Shown piece by piece: positions 9,040 through 33,995 of a stretch of 34,588 bases of DNA. The position numbers were made by a program, and so were the translations under genes. Location of the stretch: contig MPMM01000008.1 of the NCBI GenBank assembly GCA_002238505.1, positions 1 through 34,588 of the forward strand, written 5' to 3'. The notes under the pieces were generated by a model that made no database searches, was not told where the DNA came from, and was given only the letters and a program-made list of their open reading frames with translations. Source of the stretch: SAR202 cluster bacterium bin22 (lineage in GTDB: Bacteria > Chloroflexota > Dehalococcoidia > Lucifugimonadales > UBA3495). Each line of letters begins with the position of its first letter. Within the stretch, counting starts at the first letter, position 1.

Positions 9040-9306
9040 CCACGCCGGTTGACTGGCAGACAGGGGAGTGAAACGAAATCGTCCGCCACAGGCCGAGAGA
9101 TCTTGCCAGCGGGCCGGGGTCCGGGTCCGCAGTTGCTGGAATACCCTGGACCCGGCGAGGCCAAGCCGGAGCGCTCGACATCGACGAGGGAAGGCCGCCC
9201 TGCCAGGGTTGCCGCTCTCTAATAACTCTTGCCGGTGACAAAGTTCTGCGACATTTCACCCTTACAGTGAGTCTTGTCAAAGGAATTTCACGAAAGGAGT
9301 GGAATG

Positions 9307-10929
9307 ATGATACGCAACAGGAGGATGAAGACGACTCTCGTGGCCGGTCCGGTCCTGGCGGCCCTGATCGCCGCCGGTGTGGTATTTGGCTGCACCACTG
9401 ACACTGGAATCATGGACGGCAGGGACTCCGGAAGCGGCGTCGGCGCGTCAACGCTGGAGGTCTCCGAACGGGGAGGCGGCGAGTCCGGCGGTGAGCATGG
9501 CCCCGGCGGAGAGGCAGCGGTGGGCGACGGCGCTGGTAGAGAGGGCGGCGGAGAAGGTAGCGGCGCATCCGGCGGGGAGGAGGCCAGCGGCGCCAACCTG
9601 GCTCCGGACGCCACCTTCGACGCGGTCCGCGGCGGCGCCCGGCTGATCCTGAACTACGACGCGGCGGGCAACGCCTTCACCGGAACCGCGGAGAACACCA
9701 CCGGCAACGCGCTGACCAACGTGAGGGTCGAGGTGCACCTGTCCAACGGGACGGAGCTTGGGCCCACCACCCCGGTGGACCTGGCCCGGGGCCAGGTGAT
9801 GGATGTCAACCTGCCCTCGACGGCAGCTTCCTTCGCCGGCTGGATCGCCCACGCCGAGGTGGGCACCGGAGCGGAGGGAGGCCAGGCTGCCGGTGGCGGC
9901 GGAGAGAGTGGGGCCGGAGAGATTGGTGGTGGCGAGAGCGGACCGGACGGCCCCGAGGGCGCCGAGAGCGGCGCAGCAGGCGCGGGTGGCAACGAGGCAG
10001 CCATGGAGGCCGCCATGTCCAGCCCCATCACCCCCCTGGACCAGGCGTGGAACGGAGTCCTGGGCGGGCTGGCCATCTCCGCATGGTACGATTCGGCAAC
10101 CCAGACGGTCAACTCAACGGTGCAGAACACCACCTCGCAGACCCTGTGCTACGTGCAGGCGGAACCTCACCTGAAGTCGGGAACGCAGACGGTGGGAGAG
10201 CTGGGCCCCGACGTGGTGGGAGACCTGGCCCCGGGTCAGCAGGCCATCTCCAGCGTATCGGTCAGCAGCGAGCCCAGCCTGGCGGGAGTAGCCTTCGACG
10301 GCTACGTGGTCCACATGGAGGTGTTCGACTGCGGCGGCCCCGGCCCACAGCCTCACACCGGAGGGGTGGGAGCCGAGGGCAGTGGCAACGAGGCCCCAGG
10401 CGGTGAGGGGCATGGCCCTGGCGGCGAGGGCTCCGGCAGTGAGTCCGGCAGCGAAGGCTCCGTTGGTGAGGGCGGCAGCGAGGGCCCTGAGTCTGGCGGA
10501 GGCAGCGAAGAGGGCAGCGCCAGCATGCTGTCCCCGGACGAGACCTTCGATGCGGTCCGGGGCGGCGCCCGCCTCATCCTGAACTATGACGCGGCTGGCA
10601 ACGCCTTCATCGGCACCGTGGAGAACACCACCGGCAACGCGCTGACCAACGTCAGGATCGAGGTGCACCTGTCCAATGGAACCGAGCTTGGCCCGACCAC
10701 ACCGGTGGACCTGGCCCCCGGCGAGGTGCTGATGGTCAACCTTCCCTCGACCCAGGCGTCCTTCACCGGCTGGGTGGCCCACGCCGAAGTGGGTGGCGGC
10801 GAGGGCAGCGGCGCAGGCGGCGAGTCGGGCGGCGAACACGGTGGCAGCCAGTCCGGCGGCGAGCAGGGCGGGGGTGGCGAAGGCGGCGGAGAGCACGGCT
10901 CCCGCGGCGAACGGCGGGGAGGCGGCTAG
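9307..10929 (+). CDS. lipoprotein with three FxLYD-like domains
   Basis: Starts at the second of two adjacent ATGs (9304, 9307), with AAAGGAG seven bases upstream of 9307. A basic start and hydrophobic core end in VVFGC at residue 29, a probable lipobox, so the protein is likely lipid-anchored outside the cell. Three beta-sandwich domains of about 90 residues (about 99-188, 241-341 and 407-498) have the look of FxLYD domains (ENTTGNALTNVRVEVHLSNG). Domains 1 and 3 are about 75/86 identical in protein and nearly so in DNA, showing recent internal duplication; domain 2 is diverged. Gly/Ser/Glu-rich linkers separate them and form the tail. Such linkers suggest an extended surface protein; ligand unknown. 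It is probably monocistronic, about 270 bases after the replication-relaxation gene. Confidence 0.75.
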   Translation: MIRNRRMKTTLVAGPVLAALIAAGVVFGCTTDTGIMDGRDSGSGVGASTLEVSERGGGESGGEHGPGGEAAVGDGAGREGGGEGSGASGGEEASGANLAPDATFDAVRGGARLILNYDAAGNAFTGTAENTTGNALTNVRVEVHLSNGTELGPTTPVDLARGQVMDVNLPSTAASFAGWIAHAEVGTGAEGGQAAGGGGESGAGEIGGGESGPDGPEGAESGAAGAGGNEAAMEAAMSSPITPLDQAWNGVLGGLAISAWYDSATQTVNSTVQNTTSQTLCYVQAEPHLKSGTQTVGELGPDVVGDLAPGQQAISSVSVSSEPSLAGVAFDGYVVHMEVFDCGGPGPQPHTGGVGAEGSGNEAPGGEGHGPGGEGSGSESGSEGSVGEGGSEGPESGGGSEEGSASMLSPDETFDAVRGGARLILNYDAAGNAFIGTVENTTGNALTNVRIEVHLSNGTELGPTTPVDLAPGEVLMVNLPSTQASFTGWVAHAEVGGGEGSGAGGESGGEHGGSQSGGEQGGGGEGGGEHGSRGERRGGG

Positions 10930-11000
10930 GACCGGCAGGCCCTGCTGAGCAAAGGTGTTGAAACCTGGTGGATTAAGACCTGACCCAACAATGGCCTGAA

Positions 11001-11100
11001 ATTGGACGCTGCGCCTGCCAGAGGCGCGGCGTCCAAACTGGTTTCAAGGGAATGACGATGACCGGCACGGTATTGATGGTCCAGGAAGACGCCAGGACCG
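11001..11100 (+). repeat. duplicated leader with hairpin, copy A
   Basis: About 100 bases repeated at 11293-11393. It contains TTGGACGCTGCGCCT and a near-complementary arm (one G-T wobble) around a GCCAG loop at 11002-11036, then a ribosome-binding site and the first codons of a response-regulator-like gene (ATG at 11058). The stem is kept in both copies, which supports a structured RNA leader or a small palindromic element. Confidence 0.6.
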
Positions 11101-11270
11101 TCAGCCGGTCAGTGTGGACTTCCAGCGGGCCGGATTTCTGATCGAAGTAGTCGATAACGGGGACAGGGCCCGAGACCTGGCCCAGGACCTGGTAATCTTC
11201 GACCTGGCGCTGCCCCGTATTGGCCGGGCGGAACTGAGCCGTATCCCGCGCCGTGGGAAGGGTCAGAGTA
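11058..11270 (+). pseudogene. frameshifted response-regulator receiver fragment
   Basis: The ATG at 11058 (AAGGGA upstream) opens a frame reading MTGTVLMVQEDARTVSR, which stops at a TGA after 27 codons. In another frame the receiver pattern continues: VDFQRAGFLIEVVDNGDRAR, then DLAQDLVIFDLALPRIGRAE. Put together this matches a CheY-like domain: acidic pocket (ED), the phospho-acceptor Asp in the DLVIFDLALP strand, and the following loop. A one-base-type frameshift near 11110 separates the parts, and the C-terminal third is missing. It is therefore a truncated, inactive response regulator without a partner kinase nearby. Confidence 0.55.
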
Positions 11271-11293
11271 TTGCGAATCTCATGCCGCCTGCA
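11270..11293. repeat. 24-base dispersed repeat, copy 2
   Basis: Identical to 6688-6711. Here it lies at the junction between the broken receiver fragment and the second copy of the hairpin leader, suggesting that it marks an element or rearrangement boundary. Confidence 0.6.
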
Positions 11294-11393
11294 TTGGACG
11301 CTGCGCCTGCCAGAGGCGCAGCGTCCAACACTGGTTTTCAGGGAGTGACGATGAGGGGCACGGCACTGATGGTCCAGGAAGACGCCAGGACCG
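11293..11393 (+). repeat. duplicated leader with hairpin, copy B
   Basis: Second copy of the unit at 11001-11100. The stem is a perfect 15-base palindrome arm pair (11294-11308 and 11314-11328). It is followed by AGGGAG, an ATG at 11351 and the codons MRGTALMVQEDART, after which similarity to receiver domains fades. It is a second, shorter remnant of the same response-regulator start. Confidence 0.6.
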
Positions 11394-11462
11394 CCAACCG
11401 GCACGTACCGGGCCACACTCCTCCGAAGCGCCTGGGCACACGCCGGCCCCGGACAGGACAGT

Positions 11463-11489
11463 GGATACGCAAGAGATACCATATTGGGC
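11463..11489. repeat. 27-base repeat, copy 1
   Basis: Matches 18702-18728 at 24 of 27 bases, sharing GATACCATATTGGGC exactly and an AT-rich sequence after it. The two copies are direct repeats, each a few hundred bases upstream of a gene for an exported or membrane-anchored protein. A shared promoter or an attachment-type site are both possible. Confidence 0.5.
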
Positions 11490-11742
11490 AATAAAGATAC
11501 TATATCGTGATGCATGGCGTGCTAGACTTGGCAAGAAGTGTTGTGAGCGCCACGTTGTGAAGCGTACCAGAGTGTTGAGACTCCCAGGATTGAAGGGTCG
11601 GGCCCCCATGGCCCTGGCCTATTTTGGATGCCGGCCTGATTGTGTACCGGTCCGGCGGTTCCCCACGTTGGCGGCCATGCCTGACCTGACCAAACCGCTC
11701 CGGCCCTGCCCGTTGTACACGGGTGGGCGCGCCATAAGACTA

Positions 11743-11816
11743 CCCCCCCCCCCCCCCCCCTCCCCGTGGTAGCGGGGGGGGGCGCCCAAAAACCCCCCCC
11801 CCCCCCCCCCCCCCCC
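11743..11816. repeat. long poly-C/poly-G homopolymer tracts
   Basis: C x18 at 11743-11760, G x9 at 11774-11782 and C x24 at 11793-11816, with short spacers between them. These are extreme lengths for bacterial DNA. The middle G run could pair with either C run. They may be a slippage-prone switch upstream of the coiled-coil gene at 11884, or an assembly or polishing artefact; the lengths should not be trusted. Confidence 0.8.
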
Positions 11817-11883
11817 GACTTTCGCCATCATCCAGCCTCGAGTTCCCTAAGCCTGGCGCCCGTCGCTCTCAGGAGATGACGGC

Positions 11884-12690
11884 ATGAGGCTGGGAACCAG
11901 TTGGAATATCATCGTTGGCGCGGGCGCCGCCCTGCTCTGCCTCGCCATCGTGGGTATTACCCTGCTGCTGGTGCAGGAACGGGGGGACTCCGCCCGTGCC
12001 GCCCGGGAACTGGGCCTGCGGGAGCAGGAACTGGCCCAGGCGCAGTCCGAGTTGCAGCAGGCCCTGGGCCAGCGGGACCCCCGGGTCCCGGCCCTGGAGC
12101 AGGCCCGCCAACAGTTGGAGGGCCGGAACCTGGAGTTGTCCGGCCAGATTACTGCCCTGGAAGAGGAACGGGACCAACTGCAGGGGACCGTGGAGTTCCT
12201 GCAACAGGGCCGGCGGGCCCTGCTGGGCGACAACACCAGCGCCAGCGCCCGGAGCCTCGGCCCCGGGGAGTCCCTGCCAACAACGGACCCAACGGCAGCG
12301 GACCCAACAGCAGCAGTCTCAGCCCAGGACTCCCAACTATCCCAGGAAACCTCCCCCAGCACAGAGATAGCGCCGGCCGACACCCTTCAGGAAGAGGGGG
12401 ACAGCCTGGCGGCGACGCTCGACTCCCTGCAGGCCGAACGGGATGGGCTGGCGGCAAGGATCGAATCCCTGCAGGCCGAACGGGACGGCCTTGCGGCCAC
12501 GGTGGAATCCCTGCAGGGCTCGGGAGACGGAACTGCCGCTCCGGTCGACGCCCTGCGGGCCGAACGGGACGGTCTGGCGGCCAGGGTCCAATCCCTGCAG
12601 GCTTCCTACTCTGCCCTCACCGACGAGAACAGTGGCCTGAAGGCGGCACTGCGGGCCCTGGAAGCGGACAAGCTCAGCCTCGAGACGTAG
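11884..12690 (+). CDS. membrane-anchored coiled-coil protein, amber-truncated
   Basis: A 268-residue frame. A single N-terminal membrane helix (about 9-31: NIIVGAGAALLCLAIVGITL) is followed by a long coiled coil rich in Leu, Gln, Glu and Ala. A low-complexity Thr/Ala/Ser stretch at about 134-165 is followed by near-identical heptad-like units LQAERDGLAARIESLQAERD repeated at the DNA level. The frame stops at TAG (12688-12690) but continues without shift into the frame at 12691-13452, still in coiled-coil style (LSLET, stop, VEEFQLAHES). CAG to TAG in one long gene is the simplest explanation, so the original protein had about 522 residues, ending in a signal-peptidase-like domain. AGGAG eight bases upstream supports the ATG. 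Poly-C tracts lie about 70 bases upstream. Confidence 0.7.
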   Translation: MRLGTSWNIIVGAGAALLCLAIVGITLLLVQERGDSARAARELGLREQELAQAQSELQQALGQRDPRVPALEQARQQLEGRNLELSGQITALEEERDQLQGTVEFLQQGRRALLGDNTSASARSLGPGESLPTTDPTAADPTAAVSAQDSQLSQETSPSTEIAPADTLQEEGDSLAATLDSLQAERDGLAARIESLQAERDGLAATVESLQGSGDGTAAPVDALRAERDGLAARVQSLQASYSALTDENSGLKAALRALEADKLSLET

Positions 12691-13452
12691 GTGGAGGAAT
12701 TCCAGCTGGCGCATGAATCCGTGGCCATGCTGGAGGAGCGGGCAGAGGGCCTGCGCGCGGTCATCGCTGCCCTGGAGGAGGACCGCCAGGCCCTGCAGGT
12801 GAAGTCAAGCGAGATGTTTCCCACCTGCACCGGCAGCATGGAACCCAGGATCACCTGCCTGGATACCGCCGTGGTGCTCCAGAACTTCCTGCCGGAGGAC
12901 ATTGCCCTGGACAACGTCATTGCCTACTACCCTCCCGGCCAGGAGGGGGCCGGCGACGGTCCCCCGGTGTTTCACCGGGTTACGAATATCAAGGTCGAGG
13001 ACGACGTCCATTACTTCTGGCCCAGGGGAGACGCCCTGGACGAGCCGGACGGGGTCTGGGTCCCGGAGGGCAATGTCCTGGGATACCTGATCGAACTCCG
13101 GCCGGGGACTCGGCCCCAGAACTCAGCCCTGAGAGACCGGGTGAATGGGGCCAGAGAACTGTACGCATCCGCCCGGGACAGGATGCTTGAGGCCAGGGGC
13201 AGGTACGACGACCTGGCAGTGAGGCACTGCGGGAGCGTGGAGGCCGTATCCACCTGCTCCACCATCTCCCAGGAGGGCCGGGCAGAGCTCAGGGCGGCCT
13301 ACGACGTCTTCTCCGGGGCCTGGGGTGAGTACGTGAACGCCACCTGCGGTTACGACAAGGCTTACTACCACGGTCTCCACGAAAGCCAGCCGTCAACCGG
13401 GCAACAGTCCGGTCAATACGTCGCCCCCTCTCTGTGCTCCCAGGGGGGCTAG
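12691..13452 (+). CDS. S26 signal-peptidase-like domain with coiled-coil start
   Basis: A 253-residue frame in phase with the preceding coiled-coil gene; its GTG directly follows that gene's TAG, so it may not be independently translated. After about 45 helical residues it has CTGSMEPRITCLDTAVVLQN, where SMEP matches the catalytic-Ser box of S26 signal peptidases. The rest of the domain order follows: DNVIAYYPPG, PVFHRVTNIK and WPRGDALDEPDGVWVPEGNV, ending in GNVLGYLIEL. The second box has His (FHRV) rather than the bacterial Lys, as in the archaeal/SipW-like S26B group. A Cys-containing helical tail follows. A signal-peptidase-like domain on a long membrane-anchored coiled coil is unusual. 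Processing activity is inferred from motifs only. Confidence 0.6.
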   Translation: MEEFQLAHESVAMLEERAEGLRAVIAALEEDRQALQVKSSEMFPTCTGSMEPRITCLDTAVVLQNFLPEDIALDNVIAYYPPGQEGAGDGPPVFHRVTNIKVEDDVHYFWPRGDALDEPDGVWVPEGNVLGYLIELRPGTRPQNSALRDRVNGARELYASARDRMLEARGRYDDLAVRHCGSVEAVSTCSTISQEGRAELRAAYDVFSGAWGEYVNATCGYDKAYYHGLHESQPSTGQQSGQYVAPSLCSQGG

Positions 13453-13641
13453 GGAAGGCATTGAGGATGCAAGGGTCACCTGTCAGCTCTCCCTCAGGGG
13501 AGGGGCTGGAGCCAGCCCCGCACTTGATACGGGGGGGGTGAACCCTCCAACTGGGAAACTCCCAGCTTAATTCAGGCATGAACCAGGGAGGCCTCGAACC
13601 AGGGGGGCGTCCTTCCGGAAACAACGTGAGGAGGTGTATCG

Positions 13642-18996: not shown

Positions 18997-21900
18997 ATGT
19001 TAGGGCGCGGGTCCCTGCGGCGACCGCTGTTCCTGGCCGGCGCGCTGACGCTCCTCGTGGTGGCCGTGTTAATGACGGCCCTGCCGTGGTCCGCCGGGAG
19101 TCCGGCCAGCGCCCAGAACGATGCCCAAACTGAAGTCCCGGGCAAGCCCACCGGGCTGACCGTAGCCACCCAGCAGGGCTCCCTGACCGCATCTGCGAGC
19201 TGGAACGACGTCGAGGGAGCCGACGATTACCTGGTCCGCTGGCGCCCCAAGGACGGGAAACTCAACGACGGGACGAGAGTCAACTCCGCCAGCGCAGCCA
19301 TCACCGTGGACGACTACGGGGAGTGGGTGGTGCGGGTCCAGGCCTGCAACGAGGCCGGCTGCGGACAACCCCTGGCGCAGGGGTTCAGTGTAGAGCCCGC
19401 CCCCGAGCCAACTCCGGAACCTACGCCCGAGCCAACTCCGGAACCTACACCCGAGCCTACGCCTGAGCCCACGCCAGAGCCCACACCCGAACCTACGCCG
19501 GAACCTACGCCCGAGCCCACGCCGGAGCCCACGCCGGAGCCCACGCCGGAGCCTGCGCCCGAGCTCCGGGTCTCGGTCGCGGCCGACGCCACTGAACTTA
19601 AGGTCAACGAGGAAGTCACTCTGACGGCGGTCATCACCAATGCGACTTCGGACCAGGATCCCGGGTATAAGTGGCAGCTGGACCTGGGTGGCGACAGTTG
19701 GTATTCCGCCGGGACGGAGGCCACATTCTCGTATCTCCAGAGCAACGCCGAGTCCAGCGCGTTCCGGGTGACGGTGACCTACGGCTCGGGAGTTTCGGCC
19801 ACCTCCGACCCGATCACCATCACCTGGGTGCCGCCCAATCGAGCGCCGACCGTCGATGGCCAGGCGGGGCATTACGCCGGTTTTATCGGGGCGGGCAACG
19901 CCCCCCGGGGCACCCTCGTCAGCAAGGTCTATGACGGCATCTTTTCCGACCCGGACGGCGACGAGCTGACCTACACCGTCTCGGTCCCCGCCGACCGCAG
20001 CGGGCTGGTGGACACGGTGTACGTCCACGAGGACACCCAGCGGGTGTTCATACGGCTGGACGCCGAGGATGACTGGGGCGCCGTCACTCCCGCTTTGCCA
20101 AAGCCGCTGGTCACCACGGTGACGCTCACCGCCACCGACCCCGACGGGCTTTCCGTCTCAGTAACAGGGGAGTTCCGCACCAACTGGGAGAGTTCCCCCA
20201 CCCTGATGTCCGTCTGCGACCGGACGCCCCAGGTGAGAAACGTCCTGGTGGAGCTTTTCGACAAGGCCTGTGAGAACATCGGCGCCGACGACCTGGCCCG
20301 GGTGGTCAGGCTGGACCTGTCGAACAAGCGCTTGAGGTCCCTGAAGCAGCAGGACTTCCAGGGCCTCGCGAACCTCAGGGACGTCAACCTGTCCCAGAAC
20401 ACTCTGACCTGGACGGCGGCATGTGCCGCCAACTATGGCGATACCGTTCAGAACGTCAACCTGACGAACAACAAACTCGGGGGATCATCCGGCGCTCAGA
20501 TTCCATCGGGCTGCTTTACCGCCAGCAAGTTCCCAGAGTTAAGGTCCCTGCACCTGGGCGCCACCCGCATCAACTCGCTGGCAGGCGATCCGTTTGACGG
20601 GTTGACCAAACTGGAAATGCTAGACCTGAGCCAAAACCAAATCACCGCCGTCCCCGTGGACGCATTCGAAGACCTGAGCGAGCTCTGGTACCTGGACTTG
20701 GGACGGAACGCCCTCACCTCCAGCGGGCTGCCGGTAACCACGACCCAGGCGGGAGTCGTGACAGATGCCGTCTTCGACAACCTGTCCAGCCTCGAGTGGC
20801 TGGCACTCAACAACCAGAAAGCCCATGACGCCAACAACAACTTCGAACCCACGGGCAATCCCACGCTGACTGGTCTGGAAAATCACGTGTTCAAGGACCT
20901 GTCCAGCCTGAAGGAGCTGGACCTGGCGAACAACGGATTCACAAAGACCTCGCCGAACATACTGCCCACTGCCGTGTTCAACCACCTGACCAGCCTGGAA
21001 AGCCTGGCGCTTATCGGCAATGCCGGGGCGCCCTGGACTGTCGCCCAGCTGACCACCTTGGGGGTCAGGGCCGGGGCAAGCGTCATTCAGGTTGTAGCCG
21101 CTCCCACCGGTTTCAAGATAGATCCCGTCAGCGGCGGGGTCAAGCTGACCTGGGACGACCCCAGCGACACCAGCCTCAGCTACCAATACCGGTCCATGGT
21201 AGCAGACGGCGCCGACTGGACCGCCTGGACGGCCATCAGCAGTCCCGCTTCGTCGGGCGGCAAGTTTACACATACCGTCAGCACCGGAGTGAGCAGCGGC
21301 AATAGCTACGTTTTCCAGCTCCGGTCGGTGAAGAGCGAGGCCAACAGCTGGCGCGCCAATGCCGATTGTACTGCGGTCTTCGGCACGTCGGGCAATGACA
21401 TACTCACCGGCAGCAGTGACGTTGACTGCATCGTCGGTCTGGCTGGAGACGACACCCTGAACGGCGGCAATGGGGCCGACAAACTGGACGGCGGCGCCGG
21501 CTCGGACACCGCCAGCTATGCGGGTTCCGTCAACGGGGTAACAGTGGACCTGTCCATCAGCACTGGACAGGACCCAACCGGGGGCAACAGCCCCGCCATT
21601 GGCGATGTGCTGAGCAACATCGAGAACATCATCGGAACGGCATACCCCGATACTCTCACCGGCGACGCAAGCGCCAACGTGATCGAGGGCGGCGCGAGTA
21701 GCGACACGCTGGACTGCGCCGGCGGCACCGACACGCTAAGCTATGACGGTTCCAGCGCCGCGGTAACCGTGAGCATCAACGACGGTACGGGAATCGGCGG
21801 CGATGCCGAGGGGGACGTCGTCTCCAACTGCGAAAATCTCATCGGGTCTGATAGAGACGATATCCTCACCGGTGACAGCTCGGCCAACGTCCTCAGAGGC

Positions 21901-23655
21901 GGCAAGGGCGACGACACCCTGGAGGGCCTTGCCGGTGGAGACACGCTGAGGGGCAATGCAGACAACGACACGGCGTCCTACGCCTCTTCGGACGCCGGGG
22001 TTACGATCAACATCGCCGACAATACCGCAAACAGCGGCGGCCATGCCGCTGGCGATAGCCTTCACGGCATCCAGAACCTGATCGGCTCGGCGCACAACGA
22101 CACCCTGACCGGCGACGCAAACGACAACGTGATCGAGGGCCGCGACGGCGCAGACACCATGACCGGCGGCGCCGGAACCGACACGCTGTCCTACCGCAAT
22201 TCGGTCCGCCCAGTGTATGCGGACTTCACCCTCAATACATACGAAGATAGCGAAGCCGAGGGCGACGTCGTTTCGGGCTTCGAGAACATCATTGGATCGA
22301 AAGGCGGCGACGAACTCGTCGGCGACGCCAATAACAACGTTATCGAAGGCCTCCGTGGCCAGGACACACTGGACGGCAAGGGCGGAACTGACACGGCGTG
22401 CTACGCCTCTTCGCCCGGCCCGGTGCACCTCAATCTAAACGACTCAACCAAATCTAAAGGCTGCCACGCCTTCGGCGACACGCTTGCTAACTTCGAGAAG
22501 ATCATCGGGACGAGCTACGGCGACTACTTCACCAGCACGACGGGCGGCATCACGTTCGACGGCGGCGCCGGCACCGACACCGTCATCTACAGGGCCAGCC
22601 CTAATATCGTTACCCAAACCGCACCAGTTGGCGTAACCGTTAACCTCACTACCGGTACCGGTACCGGTACCGGTACCGGTGGCCACGCTGCGGGCGACAA
22701 ATATACCAGCATTGAGAACATCGTCGGGTCGCCATACAATGACACCCTCACCGGGGATGCTGGGAACAACGTATTTGATGGGATGGGCGGTACGGATTCC
22801 TTCGACGGCAAGGGCGGACATGACGCAGTAGTTTTCCACCGCGCCGGTGAGGACCTTACCCTCGACATGACTGACAGCACCTTCACCAGCATTGAGGAAA
22901 TCTCCGGGTCCGTCTATGAAGACACAATCCAAGGCGACGGTGGCGACACCCTTTTCGTGGGCAGTTATGGCAGCGACGCAATCAGGGGCGGGGCCGGCAA
23001 CGACACCCTCTACGGCGGCGTCGGCTACTTCTACAAGGCCATCTTCAGCGACGGCTATGTCTATGACTTAAACGGTCCCTCGGACTTTCTCTACGGTGAG
23101 GCCGGCGACGACAAGATATACACCAAGGGCAACGACAAGGCCACTGGCGGGGCTGGCAACGACAAGTTCAAAATAGACAACGCCTCCTCGATCGATGGCG
23201 GCGACGGAACCGATGAGTACTACTTTGTCCGAGGGCAAAATGACTCTCGTTTAGTTCTTATACTAAATCACCAAAATGCGGACCTGATTCGCATTTGCAT
23301 GGGGAGCGGACAAGCGGCTACCGAAGCTGCTGCTACCGACGGTCAAGTTTATTGTACAACAGAGATTCGCAATGTGTGGAACCCTGATCCGTCAAACCCA
23401 AGCGACGACGTGGTATACACCGTTTACCTGAAACAAGATGGCTCTGGTTCCCAGATCGCCCAAATTGCCCTGATTGATCGAACCACGGCGACGGGCAAAA
23501 GAATAGCGTGGTCTGACCCCAACGCCGCAGCCGGCACCGGGTGCAATTTCCTGCCGACCAAGCCAGACTACGGAACCACGCATTATGCGTCGAGATATAA
23601 TAGACCGGCGCCCAGCCTGGGGCCCGAAGGGCGTCTCGGCAACGCTTGCCCTTAA
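18997..23655 (+). CDS. giant secreted LRR/RTX adhesin-like protein
   Basis: A 1552-residue mosaic. A signal peptide (about 1-42, ending ASAQ) is followed by a fibronectin-like domain (50-130) and a spacer of about 14 repeats of the four residues TPEP (133-189). Ig/PKD-like (190-280) and cadherin-like (283-395) domains follow. A leucine-rich repeat block (about 406-694) has LxxLxLxxN units such as LEMLDLSQNQITAVPVDAFE. A second fibronectin domain (700-785) leads to a long RTX region (791-1407) of calcium-binding GGxGxDxL nonapeptides (GLAGDDTLNGGNGADKLDGG). A unique 145-residue tail (1408-1552), AT-richer at about 23220-23480, ends the protein. RTX repeats fold on Ca2+ outside the cell, so adhesion or matrix formation is likely. 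GGAG seven bases upstream supports the ATG. No type I secretion genes are adjacent. The gene lies between 630-base direct repeats. Confidence 0.85.
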   Translation: MLGRGSLRRPLFLAGALTLLVVAVLMTALPWSAGSPASAQNDAQTEVPGKPTGLTVATQQGSLTASASWNDVEGADDYLVRWRPKDGKLNDGTRVNSASAAITVDDYGEWVVRVQACNEAGCGQPLAQGFSVEPAPEPTPEPTPEPTPEPTPEPTPEPTPEPTPEPTPEPTPEPTPEPTPEPTPEPAPELRVSVAADATELKVNEEVTLTAVITNATSDQDPGYKWQLDLGGDSWYSAGTEATFSYLQSNAESSAFRVTVTYGSGVSATSDPITITWVPPNRAPTVDGQAGHYAGFIGAGNAPRGTLVSKVYDGIFSDPDGDELTYTVSVPADRSGLVDTVYVHEDTQRVFIRLDAEDDWGAVTPALPKPLVTTVTLTATDPDGLSVSVTGEFRTNWESSPTLMSVCDRTPQVRNVLVELFDKACENIGADDLARVVRLDLSNKRLRSLKQQDFQGLANLRDVNLSQNTLTWTAACAANYGDTVQNVNLTNNKLGGSSGAQIPSGCFTASKFPELRSLHLGATRINSLAGDPFDGLTKLEMLDLSQNQITAVPVDAFEDLSELWYLDLGRNALTSSGLPVTTTQAGVVTDAVFDNLSSLEWLALNNQKAHDANNNFEPTGNPTLTGLENHVFKDLSSLKELDLANNGFTKTSPNILPTAVFNHLTSLESLALIGNAGAPWTVAQLTTLGVRAGASVIQVVAAPTGFKIDPVSGGVKLTWDDPSDTSLSYQYRSMVADGADWTAWTAISSPASSGGKFTHTVSTGVSSGNSYVFQLRSVKSEANSWRANADCTAVFGTSGNDILTGSSDVDCIVGLAGDDTLNGGNGADKLDGGAGSDTASYAGSVNGVTVDLSISTGQDPTGGNSPAIGDVLSNIENIIGTAYPDTLTGDASANVIEGGASSDTLDCAGGTDTLSYDGSSAAVTVSINDGTGIGGDAEGDVVSNCENLIGSDRDDILTGDSSANVLRGGKGDDTLEGLAGGDTLRGNADNDTASYASSDAGVTINIADNTANSGGHAAGDSLHGIQNLIGSAHNDTLTGDANDNVIEGRDGADTMTGGAGTDTLSYRNSVRPVYADFTLNTYEDSEAEGDVVSGFENIIGSKGGDELVGDANNNVIEGLRGQDTLDGKGGTDTACYASSPGPVHLNLNDSTKSKGCHAFGDTLANFEKIIGTSYGDYFTSTTGGITFDGGAGTDTVIYRASPNIVTQTAPVGVTVNLTTGTGTGTGTGGHAAGDKYTSIENIVGSPYNDTLTGDAGNNVFDGMGGTDSFDGKGGHDAVVFHRAGEDLTLDMTDSTFTSIEEISGSVYEDTIQGDGGDTLFVGSYGSDAIRGGAGNDTLYGGVGYFYKAIFSDGYVYDLNGPSDFLYGEAGDDKIYTKGNDKATGGAGNDKFKIDNASSIDGGDGTDEYYFVRGQNDSRLVLILNHQNADLIRICMGSGQAATEAAATDGQVYCTTEIRNVWNPDPSNPSDDVVYTVYLKQDGSGSQIAQIALIDRTTATGKRIAWSDPNAAAGTGCNFLPTKPDYGTTHYASRYNRPAPSLGPEGRLGNACP
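22651..22680 (+). repeat. in-gene ACCGGT hexamer array, five units
   Basis: Five perfect ACCGGT units inside the RTX gene encode alternating Thr-Gly in one RTX block. Being a multiple of three bases, length change keeps the frame. It shares the GGTACC palindrome with the 13-base array at 18398-18484. Confidence 0.9.
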
Positions 23656-25706: not shown

Positions 25707-25878
25707 TGTTAGGGGGCCCCAAAATTACACTCTCACCAGTGGCGGAACTGACTCCCACGGCGCCCAGGTCGTCATCATCACCTGCTCTTCCTGCGGCTAC
25801 TTCGAGGAGCACTTCCAGTACCGAGGCCTCGATAAATTAGGCAAGGCCTGCGACCGCTGCCAGGGCCGAAAACCATGA
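25706..25878 (+). pseudogene. zinc-ribbon protein upstream of recombinase, start lost
   Basis: The frame ending at TGA 25876-25878 reads SGGTDSHGAQVVIITCSSCG, then YFEEHFQYRGLDKLGKACDR and CQGRKP: two CxxC pairs, a typical zinc ribbon. Its stop overlaps the ATG of the recombinase (ATGA), so the two were co-translated. No ATG, GTG or TTG begins this frame between the upstream TGA (25648) and the ribbon. The only ATG (25706, with TTAAAGGAC before it) is in another frame and would join it by a one-base change in the GGGGGCCCC run at 25712-25720. An indel there, real or technical, is the simplest explanation. Probable role: DNA or protein binding alongside the integrase. Confidence 0.5.
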
Positions 25879-26887
25879 CCCAGCAGCAGGCCCTCCTGCC
25901 CGTCAATATCTCACTCAACCAGCAGGACCTTCCCGCGATTCCCGAGGGCCTCGGCCCCACCGACCTGCAGCGGATCCGCCAGTCCCTGGACTCCAGCGTC
26001 TCCGAAAACACCCGGGCCAATTACCGCTCGGCCTGGAAAACCTTCGAGCGGTGGGCCCAAGCCCGCGCTGCCCTGGCCATGCCGGCCTCCCCGACGCTTA
26101 TCGCCGCATACCTCTCCCACCTGGCCGAGGAGCGGCGCCTCTCGGTGGCCACCATCCGGCTCCACCGCGCCGCCATCGCCGCGATCTACAAGGCCCAAGG
26201 CCACGAGGACCCCACGGACAACGAGGGAGTTCGGAGGGTGATGAAGGGCATCGCCCGGGCCCACGGACGGGCCGCGAAACAGGCAAAACCCCTTACCGCC
26301 GAGGCCCTGGCGGCCGTCAGGGCCACAGCGCCGTCCGGCGCCCCCTGGGAGACGGCAAGAAGCAGGAATCAGCGGAGAGAGCTTCCTGGAGGGCCCGGGT
26401 GGACCTGGCGCTGCTGTCCGTCCTCAGAGACGGCCTGTTACGGCGCTCAGAGGCAGCAGCGCTCACCTGGGGCGACCTTGAGCTACGAGACAACGGAACA
26501 GCACTGATAAACATACCCCGGTCCAAGACCGACCAGGAGGGAGAGGGCGTAACCCTTTACATCGGCCCCCACGCCGGCGAGGCCCTGCAGGCCATCAGAC
26601 CAGCCGACGAGCTGCTGGACCGGAATGCTTCCGTCTTTGGCATGATCACCCGCAACATTGGAAAGCGGGTCACAGCGGCAGCGAAAACCGCCAGCCTGGG
26701 CGGAGGGTTCACCGGCCACAGCGGCCGCGTGGGCATGGCCCAGGACCTGGTCAAGAGCGGCGTGGAACTTCCAGCACTGATGACCACGGGTCGGTGGAAG
26801 AGCTCAAAAATGCCGGCGCGGCACACGGAACGCTAGGCCACCGGCTGGGGCGCGGTGGCCAGGTATTATCAGGAGGACCGGGGGTAA
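25875..26887 (+). pseudogene. tyrosine recombinase with several inactivating lesions
   Basis: A phage-type integrase. An N-terminal SAM-like domain (SVSENTRANYRSAWKTFERW, then PTLIAAYLSHLAEERRLSVA) and the start of the catalytic domain read from the ATG at 25875. Near 26330 the frame must shift to continue with LLSVLRDGLLRRSEAAALTW, RSKTDQEGEG, FTGHSGRVGMAQDL and GRWKSSKMPARHTER. The catalytic Tyr is His in the last box (PARH where the remnant at 2636-2880 has ALY), and TAG at 26834 replaces a Gln codon before AVARYYQED; the frame then runs to TAA at 26885-26887. A frameshift, a missing nucleophile and an amber mean it should be inactive. It heads the accessory segment to its right and overlaps the zinc-ribbon frame by ATGA. 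Confidence 0.8.
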
Positions 26888-28477: not shown

Positions 28478-30778
28478 TCAGGCAACACCTATTGCATCAC
28501 GGTCCTTCATGCCCTCTATTGCGCCTCCATTCTCTTCAACCGCAACTCTGACAATTTGGATTACTTCATCCAGGAACTCCTGATTGTCCACATCCATAGC
28601 AGATGATATGGACGGTGCTGCCTCATCATAGATACGCACCATGCGGACTGCTCGGTCCCGGCTGGACCCCCGTCCACTGAAGCCAAAAGCGGCCTGCCAT
28701 CCTGTACGCTGGTTGGCAATCAGGCGCCGTTCCGCCAATCTGTGAATTTGATCAAACACATGCTGGCTTATATTACTAATAGCCGTTTCACGCTCTTTGT
28801 CATCTTGGGGATAACTAGTCCATCCAGCAGGATTATTGAGCCATAGGGATATGCAGACCTGCAGTTCTCGTACCAGGTCAGCGACGGGACGCAGTCCGCT
28901 ATATTCATTATCCCACCAGTTGGCAATGCGCCGGCACAGTGCCTTAACGCGTGCCCAATGTTCTCTTGGTCCTTCATGGCTCAAGCCCAGTCTACCCTTC
29001 CAGGGATTCTTAAAACCGTCGGTGGCGTCGCGCAGGACGAGTTCCAGCCGAGAGATGCTGTATATCGGTGCTGCGGCCACCTCTTCCGTAAGCTCAGAAG
29101 ACTCTTGCATCCGGTTCAGCAATGCTCGAAGCTGGTCAACGAACCCTCGCGAGATTCTGTTTGCAGGCTTGTCCAAACCTCCCAAATAGAAATTCCCTTC
29201 TTGCAATTGGCCCTCCAACACCGCAGCCACGGGCGCGCCCAGGGAGTCTCGTAAGCCCAGTACTGCGTTGCCAATAGAGGCGTGAACGTGGTTCAACTTT
29301 TGTTCATCAGTTCGGAGGTTGTCACCCTTGACTTGATCGAAGTGAGTGAAGGCAACGGCAATCTTACGCCCGTGTCCGCTGCTGCCGGCAGATCTAAGCA
29401 ATTCCAGGGGCGCAGCCTGCATCGGTGATTCCGCACTGTCTACCAGCAGGATCATATCAACATCTCGAAACCTCTCGGTCACTTTGGTAGATACGCTGTT
29501 TGCCTCCCTTGCAGAGTGCCCCAGACCTTCACCGTCCAGGAACACTAGTTTTCTTTCAGGGTCGCGCAATTCAGCAGCGGCAGGCACGAATGGTCCTTTT
29601 GCGCGGATGCCGTCTACCAGGGGAGTTAACAGCTTTCCAAACTGGTCGCCATGATTGCCAGTAAACCACCGGATCTGTCGAAGAAATTCAGCGCGCTCGG
29701 CTTGTGGTTTCCGATACTGCCATCGACGCGGCCACCCGGTAGAAGTGAGCTCAAATTTCCCGGCCGCTATGTTGTCGGAACGACTACGTATGACGTCCAT
29801 AATTTCAAATGATAGCTCGGTGAATGTCTCGTTTTCGTAGAGCTGATCTGTGAAAGTGTCCAGCCACTCCTGTCGCCGGTATATGTTCGTATTGGCCTCG
29901 TAAGGGCCGTGTTCCGATACCAATTGATCGCTTGTTAATTCCGTGATTTTTCTGATTAGACCTACGTACCGCACCAGACGGCGGTTATTGATGCTCAGCT
30001 CTTCCCCTAAGACCGTCTCTTCATCTGGCAAGGCCTCGTCATCAGTCTCATCGTCGCCAAACAGGCTTGTTAGGCTACCGTGTGGTTCTGCCTGTTGCCA
30101 TCCACCCAGGACATAGGAAAGCCTGAATCTTTGTTCACGGTGTTCAAGCAGGGCACTAGCTACGCCTGCATCATCCTGTCCCCGTATCACGGCGACGCAG
30201 GCGTCTTCCAGGCATTCCTCTACAGCGCAACGAACTTCATGCTCAGGTTTAAATGTGATCACCGCATCATAGAAGTCCGCGCCAGGATCCGACACAATCT
30301 CGATTTCCGACGTTGTCGTCTTGGCAGTGGAAGTCGAAGGGAACCGGTCCTGTTTATGGTCGGACCCGATCAGTTGCCGCAACAGGGTGGTTTTACCTGC
30401 ACCTGTTGAACCTACCAGCATTATCCTGGCGTATCCTTGCTCCGGGTTTGGTAATGGCATTACTTCCTCGCGCAAATGGCGAGGTTCAATCTTTCCGATC
30501 TCTATCTCGTCAAAAAAAGCGGCAACCACGTTGGTGTTAAAATGCCGGCCGGCGTCGCCGAGGCGATCAAGGCTCCACCATGACTGATCAGACAGCAACT
30601 CATTGAGTTGATCCACCAGCCGTTGTGCCTCGTCAGGATCAGCGGTGCCAAGTCCGCGACGTACCTTCAAACCTGGCTTGCCGCGATTATCTTTGCGTAG
30701 GGGATGACTGAACGTTACGCTCCAGCCAGGTCGGTTATTGGAGCGAGTCTTGGATGCTCGGTAACTTCCAGTTGTCAT
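28478..30778 (-). CDS. P-loop GTPase with integrase-arm-like N-terminus
   Basis: A 766-residue protein; the ATG at 30778 has GGGAGGAATA upstream, better than a TTG five codons earlier. Residues 15-66 (PGWSVTFSHPLRKDNRGKPG, LKVRRGLGTADPDEAQRLVD) look like the AP2-type arm DNA-binding domain at the start of tyrosine integrases. A P-loop NTPase follows: GSTGAGKT at about 123-130, the DxxG box in VFLDGEGLGHSAR, and a G4-like THFD in IAVAFTHFDQVKG. The remaining roughly 250 residues are helical. The layout recalls dynamin- or septin-like GTPases fused to a recognition domain. Possible roles are nucleotide-driven DNA or membrane remodelling in phage defence; this is inference. It is convergent with the restriction remnant and divergent from the IS remnant and the ATPase/TOPRIM pair. 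No recombinase catalytic domain is present. Confidence 0.7.
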   Translation of the reverse strand: MTTGSYRASKTRSNNRPGWSVTFSHPLRKDNRGKPGLKVRRGLGTADPDEAQRLVDQLNELLSDQSWWSLDRLGDAGRHFNTNVVAAFFDEIEIGKIEPRHLREEVMPLPNPEQGYARIMLVGSTGAGKTTLLRQLIGSDHKQDRFPSTSTAKTTTSEIEIVSDPGADFYDAVITFKPEHEVRCAVEECLEDACVAVIRGQDDAGVASALLEHREQRFRLSYVLGGWQQAEPHGSLTSLFGDDETDDEALPDEETVLGEELSINNRRLVRYVGLIRKITELTSDQLVSEHGPYEANTNIYRRQEWLDTFTDQLYENETFTELSFEIMDVIRSRSDNIAAGKFELTSTGWPRRWQYRKPQAERAEFLRQIRWFTGNHGDQFGKLLTPLVDGIRAKGPFVPAAAELRDPERKLVFLDGEGLGHSAREANSVSTKVTERFRDVDMILLVDSAESPMQAAPLELLRSAGSSGHGRKIAVAFTHFDQVKGDNLRTDEQKLNHVHASIGNAVLGLRDSLGAPVAAVLEGQLQEGNFYLGGLDKPANRISRGFVDQLRALLNRMQESSELTEEVAAAPIYSISRLELVLRDATDGFKNPWKGRLGLSHEGPREHWARVKALCRRIANWWDNEYSGLRPVADLVRELQVCISLWLNNPAGWTSYPQDDKERETAISNISQHVFDQIHRLAERRLIANQRTGWQAAFGFSGRGSSRDRAVRMVRIYDEAAPSISSAMDVDNQEFLDEVIQIVRVAVEENGGAIEGMKDRDAIGVA

Positions 30779-30854
30779 TATTCCTCCCTGCAACGGCGTC
30801 GTGTCTATAGTCTGAAATTATCCTTGAATACGTTGTACACCGTTGTTCTATTTA

Positions 30855-30883
30855 AGGCTACAGCGCCGGAGAAACCTTGTCAA
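30855..30883 (-). promoter_or_regulatory. possible promoter of the GTPase gene
   Basis: On the minus strand TTGACA (30883-30878) is a perfect -35 box and is followed after 17 bases by TAGCCT (30860-30855), a weak -10. It lies about 80 bases before the GTPase ATG, at the edge of the IS remnant. Confidence 0.3.
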
Positions 30884-30899
30884 TAGTGAGGTCGAACAA

Positions 30900-31340
30900 C
30901 TTAGAACAACGTGCCGATCAGACGGTTTTGATCATTCCCAAGACGATGGCACACCTGAGAGCGATGAAGAAATACGAACTGAGCGTTGACCAATGGCGGA
31001 GCAACGAGGGCTTCCTGTCGGGGCCTGCTGGCCATGTGGGACTGACCACCAAGATTCACCGGCTGTTCGATTCCGAAGGACTACCCCCGCACATTGTTCT
31101 CAACGGTGGTCCGGCGCCGGACGCCTCCCTGACGATCCCCCTGCTGGAGGGTATAGAAACCGGCCCCGTCATCGCCGCCAAGGTCTACGAGAACAACAAG
31201 ATAGTGAAAGTAACACGGTCCCCGGGGCACCACCGCGGTGGTTCCGCCCAATGCCAATCGGGGCAATCCCTGGCATTACGACCGACAGCTGGCTCGGTAG
31301 CGGAATCCCACTAAACGGGCCTTCCACAAGCTGAAGCGCT
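30900..31340 (+). pseudogene. internally deleted IS5-family transposase remnant
   Basis: Pieces of an IS5-type DDE transposase occur in order but not in one frame. KKYELSVDQW is the usual N-terminus. It jumps straight to GHVGLTTKIHRLFDSEGLPP and PLLEGIETGPVIAAKVYENN of the catalytic middle, so the stretch normally in between is missing. After a frameshift near 31230 the frame TAVVPPNANRGNPWHYDRQL follows, then a stop, then RNPTKRAFHKLKR. An internal deletion and several lesions make it inactive. Terminal inverted repeats were not identified. Confidence 0.65.
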
Positions 31341-31393
31341 GAAGTGGTATCCTATCTTACATGAATCTGTCAGGGACAGGCTGGAGAACTGTA

Positions 31394-32695
31394 ATGACAA
31401 CGCTTAGTCGGCCACGGCGTTTCCAGATAACCAGAGTCTGGGCCAGAAATTTTCGCAGCATTGCGGACGCTTCCCTGGACCTGGATCAACTCACCGTACT
31501 TGTGGGGCCCAACGCTTCCGGGAAGAGCAATCTGCTTGATATTCTGCGGTTCGTCAAGGACGCTCTTCGCTTTGACCTGGAGGCGGCAATTTCCATGCGT
31601 CATGGGTTTGACGCTATCCGTCGAATAGGACCCGATAGTCCTTCAAGCGAGGTAGATATTGGGTTGCGCGCCATAGTCAGCGTCGCGCCGAGCGTGGCTG
31701 ACCATTTCGTAATTGACTATGGCTTCACCCTAGCCTCCAACGTGGAGGGAGGGCACAGAGTGACCCAGGAATATGCGATCGTACATCTGGGCGAACAAAG
31801 CAGCGTTGCTCCCTTTGTCTTTAGAATCGAGGATGGGAGACTCACCTCCCCCGGATCGTCTTTGCCCCCAGACGACACACAGCCTGACCAATGGCAGGAC
31901 GATGAAGAGCCTCTTGTCTACGACACCCAAGAGTTGTCCCTTCGTAGACTGATGCGCCCGCTAGTATTGGGAAGATTCCAATCATCGGCAGAGGAAGATG
32001 GACAATTCACCATTTATTCCCGACCCGTCGATACAATGTTGCGGCGAATCGCAGCGATGCGGTTCTACCATATATTCCCCAATACAATCAGAGAGCCTCA
32101 AAGATTAGACAACCCATATCCCCTGAACGAAGATGCCGGCAATCTAGCGTCGGTGCTGAGGGATTTCGAGAGGAGCCCTGGGAATACAATCGACCGCCTA
32201 AAGGGGTCTTTGGGGCGCCTCGTTCCTGGAGTTTCAGACTTGGAACTGACCTCAGCGGGAGGTTACCTGGTGGTGCGCCTTAAACACGAGAACGAGCACG
32301 GCGGGGGATGGATTGACTTATCTCAAGAATCTGATGGGACCGTTCGCCTTCTAGGATTGCTGACTGCCTTGCACCAGCGCCGTACTCTTCCCTTAATTGG
32401 AGTAGAGGAGCCGGAGCTCACTGTCCATCCTGGAGCGCTAACGGCATTGGCTGATGAACTGAAGGAAAAATCCCGGTCAAGCCAACTAATCGTCACTACT
32501 CACAGCCCAGACCTCATTGACCGTATCACTGACTTTCGCGACGTCGATTCCCTCCGTGTAGTGGAATTGATCAAGGGCGCAACGGAAGTGAATGTAGTTT
32601 CCGGTGCCCAGAAAGAGGCGGTAATGCGGCACCTGTTTTCCCCAGGCGAACTGCATAGGCAAGGAGAACTGGAGACGTTTGGAGCACTGCAGTGA
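31394..32695 (+). CDS. AAA ATPase (AAA_21/OLD-like) of two-gene system
   Basis: A 433-residue ABC/SMC-like ATPase. The Walker A box GPNASGKSN lies at about residues 35-43, after the FRSIADASLDLDQLTVLVG strand. A long insertion occupies the middle. DLSQESDGTVRLLGLLTALH serves as the signature region, LPLIGVEEPELTVHP as Walker B, and VTTHSPDLIDR as the switch His. These are standard features of AAA_21/AAA_15 and OLD-type ATPases. The ATG at 31394 has GGAG eight bases upstream; one 11 codons earlier has none. Its TGA overlaps the GTG of the DUF4276-like gene, so the products are likely made in fixed ratio and form a complex. OLD, Gabija and PARIS combine such an ATPase with a TOPRIM nuclease. 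This pair fits the split form, with DUF4276 rather than the DUF4435 of PARIS. Confidence 0.8.
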   Translation: MTTLSRPRRFQITRVWARNFRSIADASLDLDQLTVLVGPNASGKSNLLDILRFVKDALRFDLEAAISMRHGFDAIRRIGPDSPSSEVDIGLRAIVSVAPSVADHFVIDYGFTLASNVEGGHRVTQEYAIVHLGEQSSVAPFVFRIEDGRLTSPGSSLPPDDTQPDQWQDDEEPLVYDTQELSLRRLMRPLVLGRFQSSAEEDGQFTIYSRPVDTMLRRIAAMRFYHIFPNTIREPQRLDNPYPLNEDAGNLASVLRDFERSPGNTIDRLKGSLGRLVPGVSDLELTSAGGYLVVRLKHENEHGGGWIDLSQESDGTVRLLGLLTALHQRRTLPLIGVEEPELTVHPGALTALADELKEKSRSSQLIVTTHSPDLIDRITDFRDVDSLRVVELIKGATEVNVVSGAQKEAVMRHLFSPGELHRQGELETFGALQ

Positions 32696-33324
32696 ATATT
32701 AACCCCGCTATAATTGCAATTGTAGAAGGCGACGGTGAATTCGATGCCGTACCGGCATTGTTACGGAGGGTATTGTGGGAGCGACTTTGTCGGTACGACA
32801 TTTCAGCCAAAAAACCGAAAGCGGCTGGTGGTAAGCCTGATCTCTTGAAACGATTCGAAAAGTTCCTGGAATACGCACTCATAGAGGGCTGCGACGCAAT
32901 TATAGTACTTGTAGACGCCGATCAAGAATGCCCGTTTGGGAAGGCACCTGAGTTAGCAGGCAGGGCGGCAGCCCTCAACCTGAATGTGCCCGTTGCAATC
33001 GTCTACGCGAGGAGTGAATACGAAACATGGTTCATATCCAGCCTGTCGAAAGGAACAGGTGAGCCGATCAGGTCAAGACTGGGCATCTCAGCTTCCGTAA
33101 TCGCTCCGGAGGATGTTGAGGAGATTAGATCAGCAAAGGGTTGGCTTGAACATCACATGCCAAACGACAGGGGCTACAAGGAAACCGAAGATCAAGCCGC
33201 CCTTACGCATTATATCGATCTTGACTTGGCGCACAGTAGATCACGCTCATTCCGCAGGTTTTGCCACGCGGTCGACGAGTTGGTCAACGCCATTGATAAT
33301 GGTTCTCAAGCGGTCACGCCTTGA
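32692..33324 (+). CDS. DUF4276-like TOPRIM protein, partner of the ATPase
   Basis: A 210-residue protein starting at GTG, which overlaps the ATPase stop (GTGA). It opens IIAIVEGDGEFDAVPALLRR, with the conserved Glu of a TOPRIM motif 1, and has IIVLVDADQE, the DxD of motif 2, about 65 residues later. Next come VAIVYARSEYETWFISSL and helical segments. This is the layout of DUF4276 proteins, which adopt a TOPRIM-like fold. TOPRIM domains cut or nick DNA in OLD-type systems, so nuclease action controlled by the ATPase is plausible; this is inferred from family and neighbour. The gene ends 60 bases before a convergent serine recombinase. Confidence 0.8.
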   Translation: MNINPAIIAIVEGDGEFDAVPALLRRVLWERLCRYDISAKKPKAAGGKPDLLKRFEKFLEYALIEGCDAIIVLVDADQECPFGKAPELAGRAAALNLNVPVAIVYARSEYETWFISSLSKGTGEPIRSRLGISASVIAPEDVEEIRSAKGWLEHHMPNDRGYKETEDQAALTHYIDLDLAHSRSRSFRRFCHAVDELVNAIDNGSQAVTP

Positions 33325-33383: not shown

Positions 33384-33995
33384 CTAAGAAGCACCACCAC
33401 CAGACGCGCCTGATATCAGGGCCAGCGCCTTCTTCACCGTGGCCGGTGAGCAGCCCAGCACCCGGGCAATCTGTCTCAGCCCCGCTCCCTCCGCATCCAT
33501 CCGCCGGCACTGCTCCAACTGTTCGGCACTCAACGCCGGTGGCCGGCCCACCCGCCTCCCCTCAGCCTTCGCCCGCTCCAGACCCAGCTTGATCCGCTCG
33601 CTGGCCGAGTCCACCTGGTAGGCCCCCTGGGCCAGCATGGACCGCCGGAAGAACTTCGCCGCCGCGCTGCCCTCCCTGGTGTCTATGTTCTCCCTTACAG
33701 CCACAATGCCGATTTCCTGTCGAGTCAGGTCCGCCTGAATCTTCACCCCTTCCTCGAAATTCCGGCTGAACCGGTCCAGGAAGGCCACCGCCACCGTGTC
33801 TCCAGGCTGCAGCACTTCCACCAGCGCCTGCCAGCCCGGGCGCTGCAGGGAGCGGCCGCTGGCCACGTCGGTGAAAACCAGGTGGTCCCGAATCCCGTGC
33901 TCCGCCAGGATGCGCAGCTGGGTCTCCAGGTTTTTGGAGTCGTCGTCAGCCTTGCTGACCCGGGCGTAGCCGTAGATCACCGGAAGTGTGTTCAT
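33384..33995 (-). CDS. serine recombinase (resolvase/invertase type)
   Basis: A 203-residue protein with the resolvase N-terminal fold. YGYARVSKADDD carries the catalytic Ser (about residue 14) and its partner Arg (about 12). VAVAFLDRFSRNFEEG holds the conserved Arg pair, followed by the helical E region (about 115-140). A GRPPALSAEQLEQ linker leads to a helix-turn-helix (GLRQIARVLGCSPATVKKAL). The length is typical of the small resolvase/invertase class. AGGAG seven bases before the ATG supports the start. Upstream (34040-34145) lie TTCAA/TTGAA inverted and direct repeats that could be its recombination or control site. It appears intact, unlike the tyrosine recombinases here, so it may be the only working recombinase in the window. 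Confidence 0.85.
   Translation of the reverse strand: MNTLPVIYGYARVSKADDDSKNLETQLRILAEHGIRDHLVFTDVASGRSLQRPGWQALVEVLQPGDTVAVAFLDRFSRNFEEGVKIQADLTRQEIGIVAVRENIDTREGSAAAKFFRRSMLAQGAYQVDSASERIKLGLERAKAEGRRVGRPPALSAEQLEQCRRMDAEGAGLRQIARVLGCSPATVKKALALISGASGGGAS

Follow-up and report, generated by a model that had tools for sequence, protein, structure and literature searches.

A dynamin-like GTPase fused to a recombinase-type N-terminal domain and a putative operator around its own promoter

The window considered here, that is, the whole stretch of DNA that was analysed, comprises the first 34,588 of the 138,970 bases of contig MPMM01000008.1 of SAR202 cluster bacterium bin22, and carries on its minus strand an open reading frame of 766 amino acids that has no internal stop and opens with an ATG at 30778. 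The elements of the gene and of the protein it encodes are the following:

28478-30778, minus strand: GTPase gene, 766 aa, solitary, ATG start; start position backed by homologues
30783-30787, minus strand: Shine-Dalgarno sequence GGAGG, read directly
30578-30778, minus strand: predicted recombinase-type (AP2-like, DUF6538-like) N-terminal DNA-binding domain, residues 1-67
29084-30448, minus strand: dynamin-like G domain with inserted helices, residues 111-565
30389-30412, minus strand: P-loop GSTGAGKT (G1), residues 123-130; motif conserved in homologues
29525-29536, minus strand: DGEG (G3), residues 415-418; motif conserved in homologues
29336-29347, minus strand: THFD (G4-like, His for the Lys of the usual T/NKxD), residues 478-481

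Searches with the whole protein against Pfam, NCBIfam, PHROGs and PDB sequences yielded either matches to the P-loop and other GTPase motifs or nothing. An AlphaFold2 model of the entire chain, generated with 32 natural sequences, displays a mean pLDDT of 86.8 and a pTM of 0.84, and its residues ~111-750 adopt the fold of bacterial dynamin-like proteins (SynDLP, IniA, BDLP, mitofusin). All 15 Foldseek matches with E <0.001 are to SynDLP, IniA, a bacterial dynamin pair, BDLP or mitofusins, and structural alignments with BDLP (376 residues, Z 12.8) and IniA (335 residues) involve both the G domain and the helical part (residues 111-753), whereas translation factors with similar structural scores align over just 157-189 residues. 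These comparisons agree with a previous sequence-only reading of this DNA, which had called a dynamin-like GTPase and had placed its core, behind the N-terminal region, on the motifs GSTGAGKT, DGEG and THFD; all three are present, and they are largely conserved across 32 homologues. The GxxGxGKS/T P-loop and the DxxG motif of the dynamin superfamily can both be recognized, and the 32 homologues conserve them save for an E/Q variation in DGEG. At the G4 position, over 90% of members carry THFD, with His in place of the Lys of T/NKxD, and it is for this reason that the protein is called merely dynamin-like. SynDLP, IniA, BDLP and DynA resemble the family in possessing a G domain and a helical bundle, but differ from it at precisely this G4 motif.

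The same reading had assigned the first ~65 residues to an arm-type DNA-binding domain, and had proposed structure prediction of the N-terminus as a check. The prediction reveals an ordered three-stranded sheet and a helix rather than a disordered segment: AlphaFold2 places strands at residues 8-12, 19-29 and 35-39 and a helix at 48-63, with pLDDT values of 83-94 over residues 11-60 of the whole-protein model, and the strand-strand-strand-helix order is recovered when the domain is modelled alone (mean pLDDT 79). The ~75 N-terminal amino acids are also conserved across phyla, with a mean column identity of 63%; conservation and confident prediction together indicate that the domain is neither disordered nor a product of chance. 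Among known families it resembles DUF6538 alone, through weak matches of 12 out of 31 N-domains (best E 0.0052); the match of the N-domain at E 0.034 reaches 14.2 bits against a Pfam cut-off of 27, below which member 1 scores. In a profile comparison, hhalign relates the N-domain to DUF6538 with 63% probability and a score of 25.9, while five control slices yielded 0.2-0.7% and scores of at most 11.8; the alignment register matches the strand 'LKVRRGLGT' and the following helix. Against Arm-DNA-bind_3, hhalign performed no better than the controls, and the positive control itself (DUF6538 versus Arm-DNA-bind_3) hardly better. Structure searches with the isolated 77-residue model gave no significant match: in the PDB the best E was 0.4; a VIA structure search gave a best Z of 4.8 for the homing endonuclease PI-SceI and 4.1 for an AP2 domain (SIP2), and a search of a viral structure library gave a best E of 0.086, with an integrase at rank 50 displaying the top TM-score (0.54) among the matches listed.

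DUF6538 loci from other genomes read as tyrosine recombinases in which the domain is N-terminal. The N-domain shares with these recombinase domains the three-stranded sheet and helix, with a matching register over the last strand and the helix, as well as tandem half-sites as likely DNA targets (see below), but in the GTPase protein no core-binding or catalytic recombinase domain follows: the catalytic RKHRH/Y domain is absent, and the remainder of the chain is the GTPase. The protein is, in short, a real fusion of a recombinase-type N-domain to a dynamin-like GTPase, of which no previous description was found in the open literature searched. Outside the GTPase family, the N-domain was found neither in 147 related genomes nor in plasmids or phages. 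Arm-binding domains are a regulatory add-on of mobile-element recombinases and belong to integrases (PMC8138268). The N-domain could derive from an integrase, the arm sites having been acquired along with it.

Upstream of the gene, a set of short repeats surrounds a promoter-like sequence:

30894-30910, minus strand: putative operator pair 1, upstream of the -35 element, GTTGTTCTAAGTTGTTC
30878-30883, minus strand: -35 element TTGACA, its place conserved in nearly all full-length members
30855-30860, minus strand: -10-like TAGCCT, 17 bp after the -35 element; a weak match whose position is inferred
30832-30848, plus strand: putative operator pair 2, past the promoter and ahead of the start codon, GTTGTACACCGTTGTTC, which is GAACAACGGTGTACAAC in the direction of the gene

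A consensus promoter scan called no promoter at the window gene, the -10 element included. Within the 34.6-kb window the half-site pair occurs at the GTPase promoter only, where 0.02 occurrences would be expected, and in the 4.39-Mb genome of the organism it is present twice at the GTPase gene and once elsewhere. In 15 other genomes the operator pair is likewise nearly confined to the GTPase gene, with few other matches.

The same architecture appears in the upstream DNA of homologues: two tandem GTTGTWC half-sites, TTGAC, the -10 region, then two half-sites in the opposite orientation. The half-sites of a pair are spaced at 10 bp (11 bp in Actinomycetota); in most members 7-10 bp separate the end of pair 1 from TTGAC, and pair 2 begins 30-39 bp after that box. 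Under strict criteria, both pairs are present in 30 of 36 full-length members and at least one in 35, versus none of six short forms, which lack the N-domain; shuffled sequences never carried both pairs. A relaxed core that admits variant half-sites detects the operator in 35/38 full-length members and 0/9 short ones, at a shuffle rate of 0.13%, and the three full-length exceptions (L016, L033, L035) retain at least one pair. Among independent full-length/short pairs, on average 2.8 of three agree and none is opposed, too few for a sign test. Plasmid members, fetched afterwards as a check on this co-occurrence, include three full-length proteins, all with the operator (present in Caballeronia, a variant in Agrobacterium, and before a small upstream gene in Azospirillum), and three Rhodococcus short forms, all without it. 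The small Azospirillum gene (L145, 5680-5958, plus strand) encodes a DUF4258 protein, and lies directly upstream of the GTPase gene and co-directional with it; the two look like a single operon, in which case control exerted from this operator could extend to the operon.

Domain and operator also appear to diverge together. Divergent N-domains are accompanied by divergent half-sites (TGTGCC in L010 and in the viral L072, and the 11-bp spacing of Actinomycetota), and in partial Mantel tests operator distance follows that of the N-domain when the GTPase core is held constant (r 0.27, p 0.035) but not that of the core given the N-domain (r 0.05, p 0.33). A scan of all of IMG/VR (2.9 million viral contigs) for the operator, using DNA alone, returned 12 sites, all 12 directly before a family gene at a distance of 3-18 bp; when viral contigs were scanned for one half-site pair only, pattern and control alike gave at least as many matches as were listed, and the comparison is uninformative. 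The joint presence and absence of operator and N-domain, the restriction of the operator to the family gene and the shared divergence make the N-domain the likely binder of the operator.

Two other origins of the repeats deserve consideration. They could be the site of an unrelated host regulator such as the SOS repressor LexA, the N-domain serving another purpose, and there is indeed a superficial likeness to the LexA boxes of alphaproteobacteria, which have the form GTTC-N7-GTTC. However, the spacing in most family members is GTTC-N6, many half-sites read GTAC or GTGC, one and the same operator recurs across eight or more phyla with a pair that is almost unique per genome, and it is lost together with the N-domain, so that such a regulator seems quite unlikely; LexA itself was rejected as the binder on the basis of spacing, taxonomic breadth and uniqueness. 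The repeats could also belong to a mobile element as arm sites of the attachment type, with the protein taking part in DNA mobility, as suggested by the ownership of arm-binding domains by integrases (PMC8138268), by the similar appearance of tandem arm sites and by a gene that moves between phyla. This explanation is very unlikely for a protein devoid of a recombinase domain, whose sites flank a conserved TTGAC promoter box and not the ends of an element, and in the window the far end of the gene bears no second copy of the operator.

The family is distributed patchily over at least eight phyla, in defence islands, plasmids and prophages, so that the fusion, whose search in other genomes had also been proposed in the sequence-only reading, does recur. 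Homologues were identified in 8 of 147 related genomes, at no fewer than 42 loci of a collection of species-level genomes (the pattern-seeded search sets a lower bound), on 17 viral contigs and on 11 plasmids, where the seven records that were opened annotate them as 'hypothetical protein'; they were absent from an annotated phage collection. The tree of the GTPase core indicates a gene that is mobile between phyla. Short forms comprise a paralogue on another contig of the same genome, a second Chloroflexota protein, and proteins from Nocardia, Rhodococcus plasmids and one Bacteroidales genome; they are polyphyletic, for the core tree can accommodate them only with 3 to 4 separate changes, and the short form arose at least 3 times. 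The paralogue of the same genome (L074, 13992-15992, minus strand) has neither N-domain nor operator and lies among transposase genes; ~7 kb from it, at L074 5383, is a near-copy of the serine resolvase encoded in the window at 33384-33995.

In the window, the GTPase gene adjoins a HEC-01-type pair (31361-33324, plus strand) formed by an AAA_21/OLD-like ATPase and a DUF4276 protein (PADLOC E 5e-86 and 1e-48). Elsewhere, a type I restriction methylase gene lies directly downstream of the GTPase gene (L040), GmrSD stands beside one Nocardia short form, BrxL, Abi or type I restriction genes are found near Rhodococcus short forms, and the Caballeronia copy adjoins a patatin phospholipase and a nucleotidyltransferase. 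Two loci (L021, L022) are surrounded by prophage capsid, portal, terminase or tail genes, and several (L013, L014, L028) have ordinary neighbours. A PADLOC scan of neighbours matched 174 models near the gene and 29 in arbitrarily chosen control regions, an excess that is suggestive only, because models are redundant and regions few. No conserved partner gene was detected, save for prophage genes common to alphaproteobacteria and a long helicase gene near the Nocardia short forms; the GTPase is therefore probably a stand-alone protein. The long genes in question (L042, 1254-6449, minus strand; L043, 1305-6476, minus strand; L045, 603-5423, plus strand) encode homologous, very long proteins a few kb from the short forms, of which that of L042, an SF1 helicase that also contains an MTES_1575 nuclease domain, is a candidate defence gene.

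The neighbours suggest that the GTPase likely functions in defence. The fold, which resembles that of housekeeping dynamins (SynDLP and IniA, for example), would also suit an ordinary bacterial dynamin of the housekeeping kind whose N-terminal extension is incidental, but such a protein is highly improbable in view of a patchy distribution (8/147 relatives) and a cross-phylum tree, carriage on plasmids and prophages, the defence neighbours, and the strong conservation of both N-domain and operator.

The DNA that is recognized appears to be the promoter of the gene itself, and the protein thus probably controls its own production instead of acting as a sensor of invading DNA. We consider it probable that this dynamin-like GTPase is the regulator of its own transcription, with the N-domain binding GTTGTWC half-sites around its promoter and keeping expression low, and release raising it. 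The domain, its fold, the operator, the joint presence or absence of the two and the confinement of the operator to the family gene are features of the sequences; from them we infer that the protein binds the operator directly, that this control is repressive, that it is linked to GTP, and that the protein serves in defence against phages or mobile DNA of other kinds. In the proposed mechanism, the N-domain would bind the tandem half-sites of two inverted pairs that flank the promoter, and the bound protein, probably dimeric or oligomeric, would occupy or bridge it, resulting in low expression. With pair 1 before the -35 element and pair 2 right after the -10 region, binding should obstruct the promoter or span it; both pairs could be held by dimers or oligomers, which are usual for dynamins. 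A change of state or place of the GTPase part, through GTP-driven assembly or an infection-related target, would then cause the protein to leave the DNA, and expression to rise. Repression is deduced from this geometry, and activation is possible instead.

The sequence-only reading had taken the fusion as a possible means of sensing specific invading DNA; its combination of a DNA-binding-type domain with a dynamin-like GTPase stands, but the sensing finds no support: no DNA other than the promoter of the gene was found to accompany the N-domain. A looser, second role on foreign DNA is nonetheless possible. An N-domain that targets the GTPase to particular sequences of invading DNA, the promoter sites being a by-product, would suit a protein of defence islands and prophages, whose DNA-binding domain could mark targets for an effector. 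It is unlikely, however, given that every occurrence of the operator architecture on viral contigs (12/12) coincides with carriage of the gene, and that the sites lie around a promoter with near-fixed spacing in many phyla. Returning to autoregulation, a more elaborate version can be offered as a tentative idea, doubtful as it stands: a one-protein defence switch that acquired an integrase arm-binding domain and its arm sites, stores itself as a repressor on its own promoter, and leaves the DNA upon a change of its GTPase during infection, thereby uniting sensing, effector function and amplification in one protein.

Dynamin-like proteins are usually viewed as membrane machines, and to our knowledge none binds a specific DNA operator; we know of no DNA-binding domain or own operator in SynDLP, IniA, BDLP or DynA, nor of a comparable N-domain or operator in Eleos/Leo. 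The latter resemble the present family as large dynamin-like GTPases in defence islands, but the PADLOC Eleos models gave a weak P-loop match to the GTPase (LeoBC E 0.02, LeoA 0.023) and nothing beyond. Eleos has been described as dynamin-like (PMC11811056), and DynA guards Bacillus against phages through delayed lysis, an example of a bacterial dynamin able to restrict the spread of phage (PMC8844932). In AbiE, the DNA-binding domain of the antitoxin AbiEi represses its own promoter via inverted repeats (PMC7319586); there, however, the regulator is a separate antitoxin, whereas regulator and GTPase would here be joined in one protein. What appears to be new, judging from sequence comparison, is the operator adjoining the gene and its link to the N-domain. 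If autoregulation holds true, the 79-bp operator (30832-30910) and the 75-residue domain would provide a genetic handle on the silencing and switching of dynamin-like proteins, and the operator could serve as a DNA signature by which to locate new family members straight from sequence.

Several other genes of the contig were also recorded. A tyrosine recombinase at 25875-26836 (plus strand) extends over two frames (25875-26507 and 26051-26836), and is possibly a pseudogene; a similar fragment lies at L074 2033-2542. A protein of 1552 amino acids encoded at 18997-23655 (plus strand) looks secreted and displays a PEPTPEPT repeat, leucine-rich repeats and GGxGxD repeats of the calcium-binding type. 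At 4560-4970 (minus strand), a 136-residue protein resembles, as read by eye, a TIR-type (Thoeris-like) domain, with a small membrane protein downstream. Beyond the window, on the same contig (L076, that is, G000:C12 30000-49999, at 8906-13480), a CBASS-like operon with nucleotidyltransferase, E1/E2-like and JAB-like genes, followed by a TIR-SAVED-like protein, was likewise read by eye.
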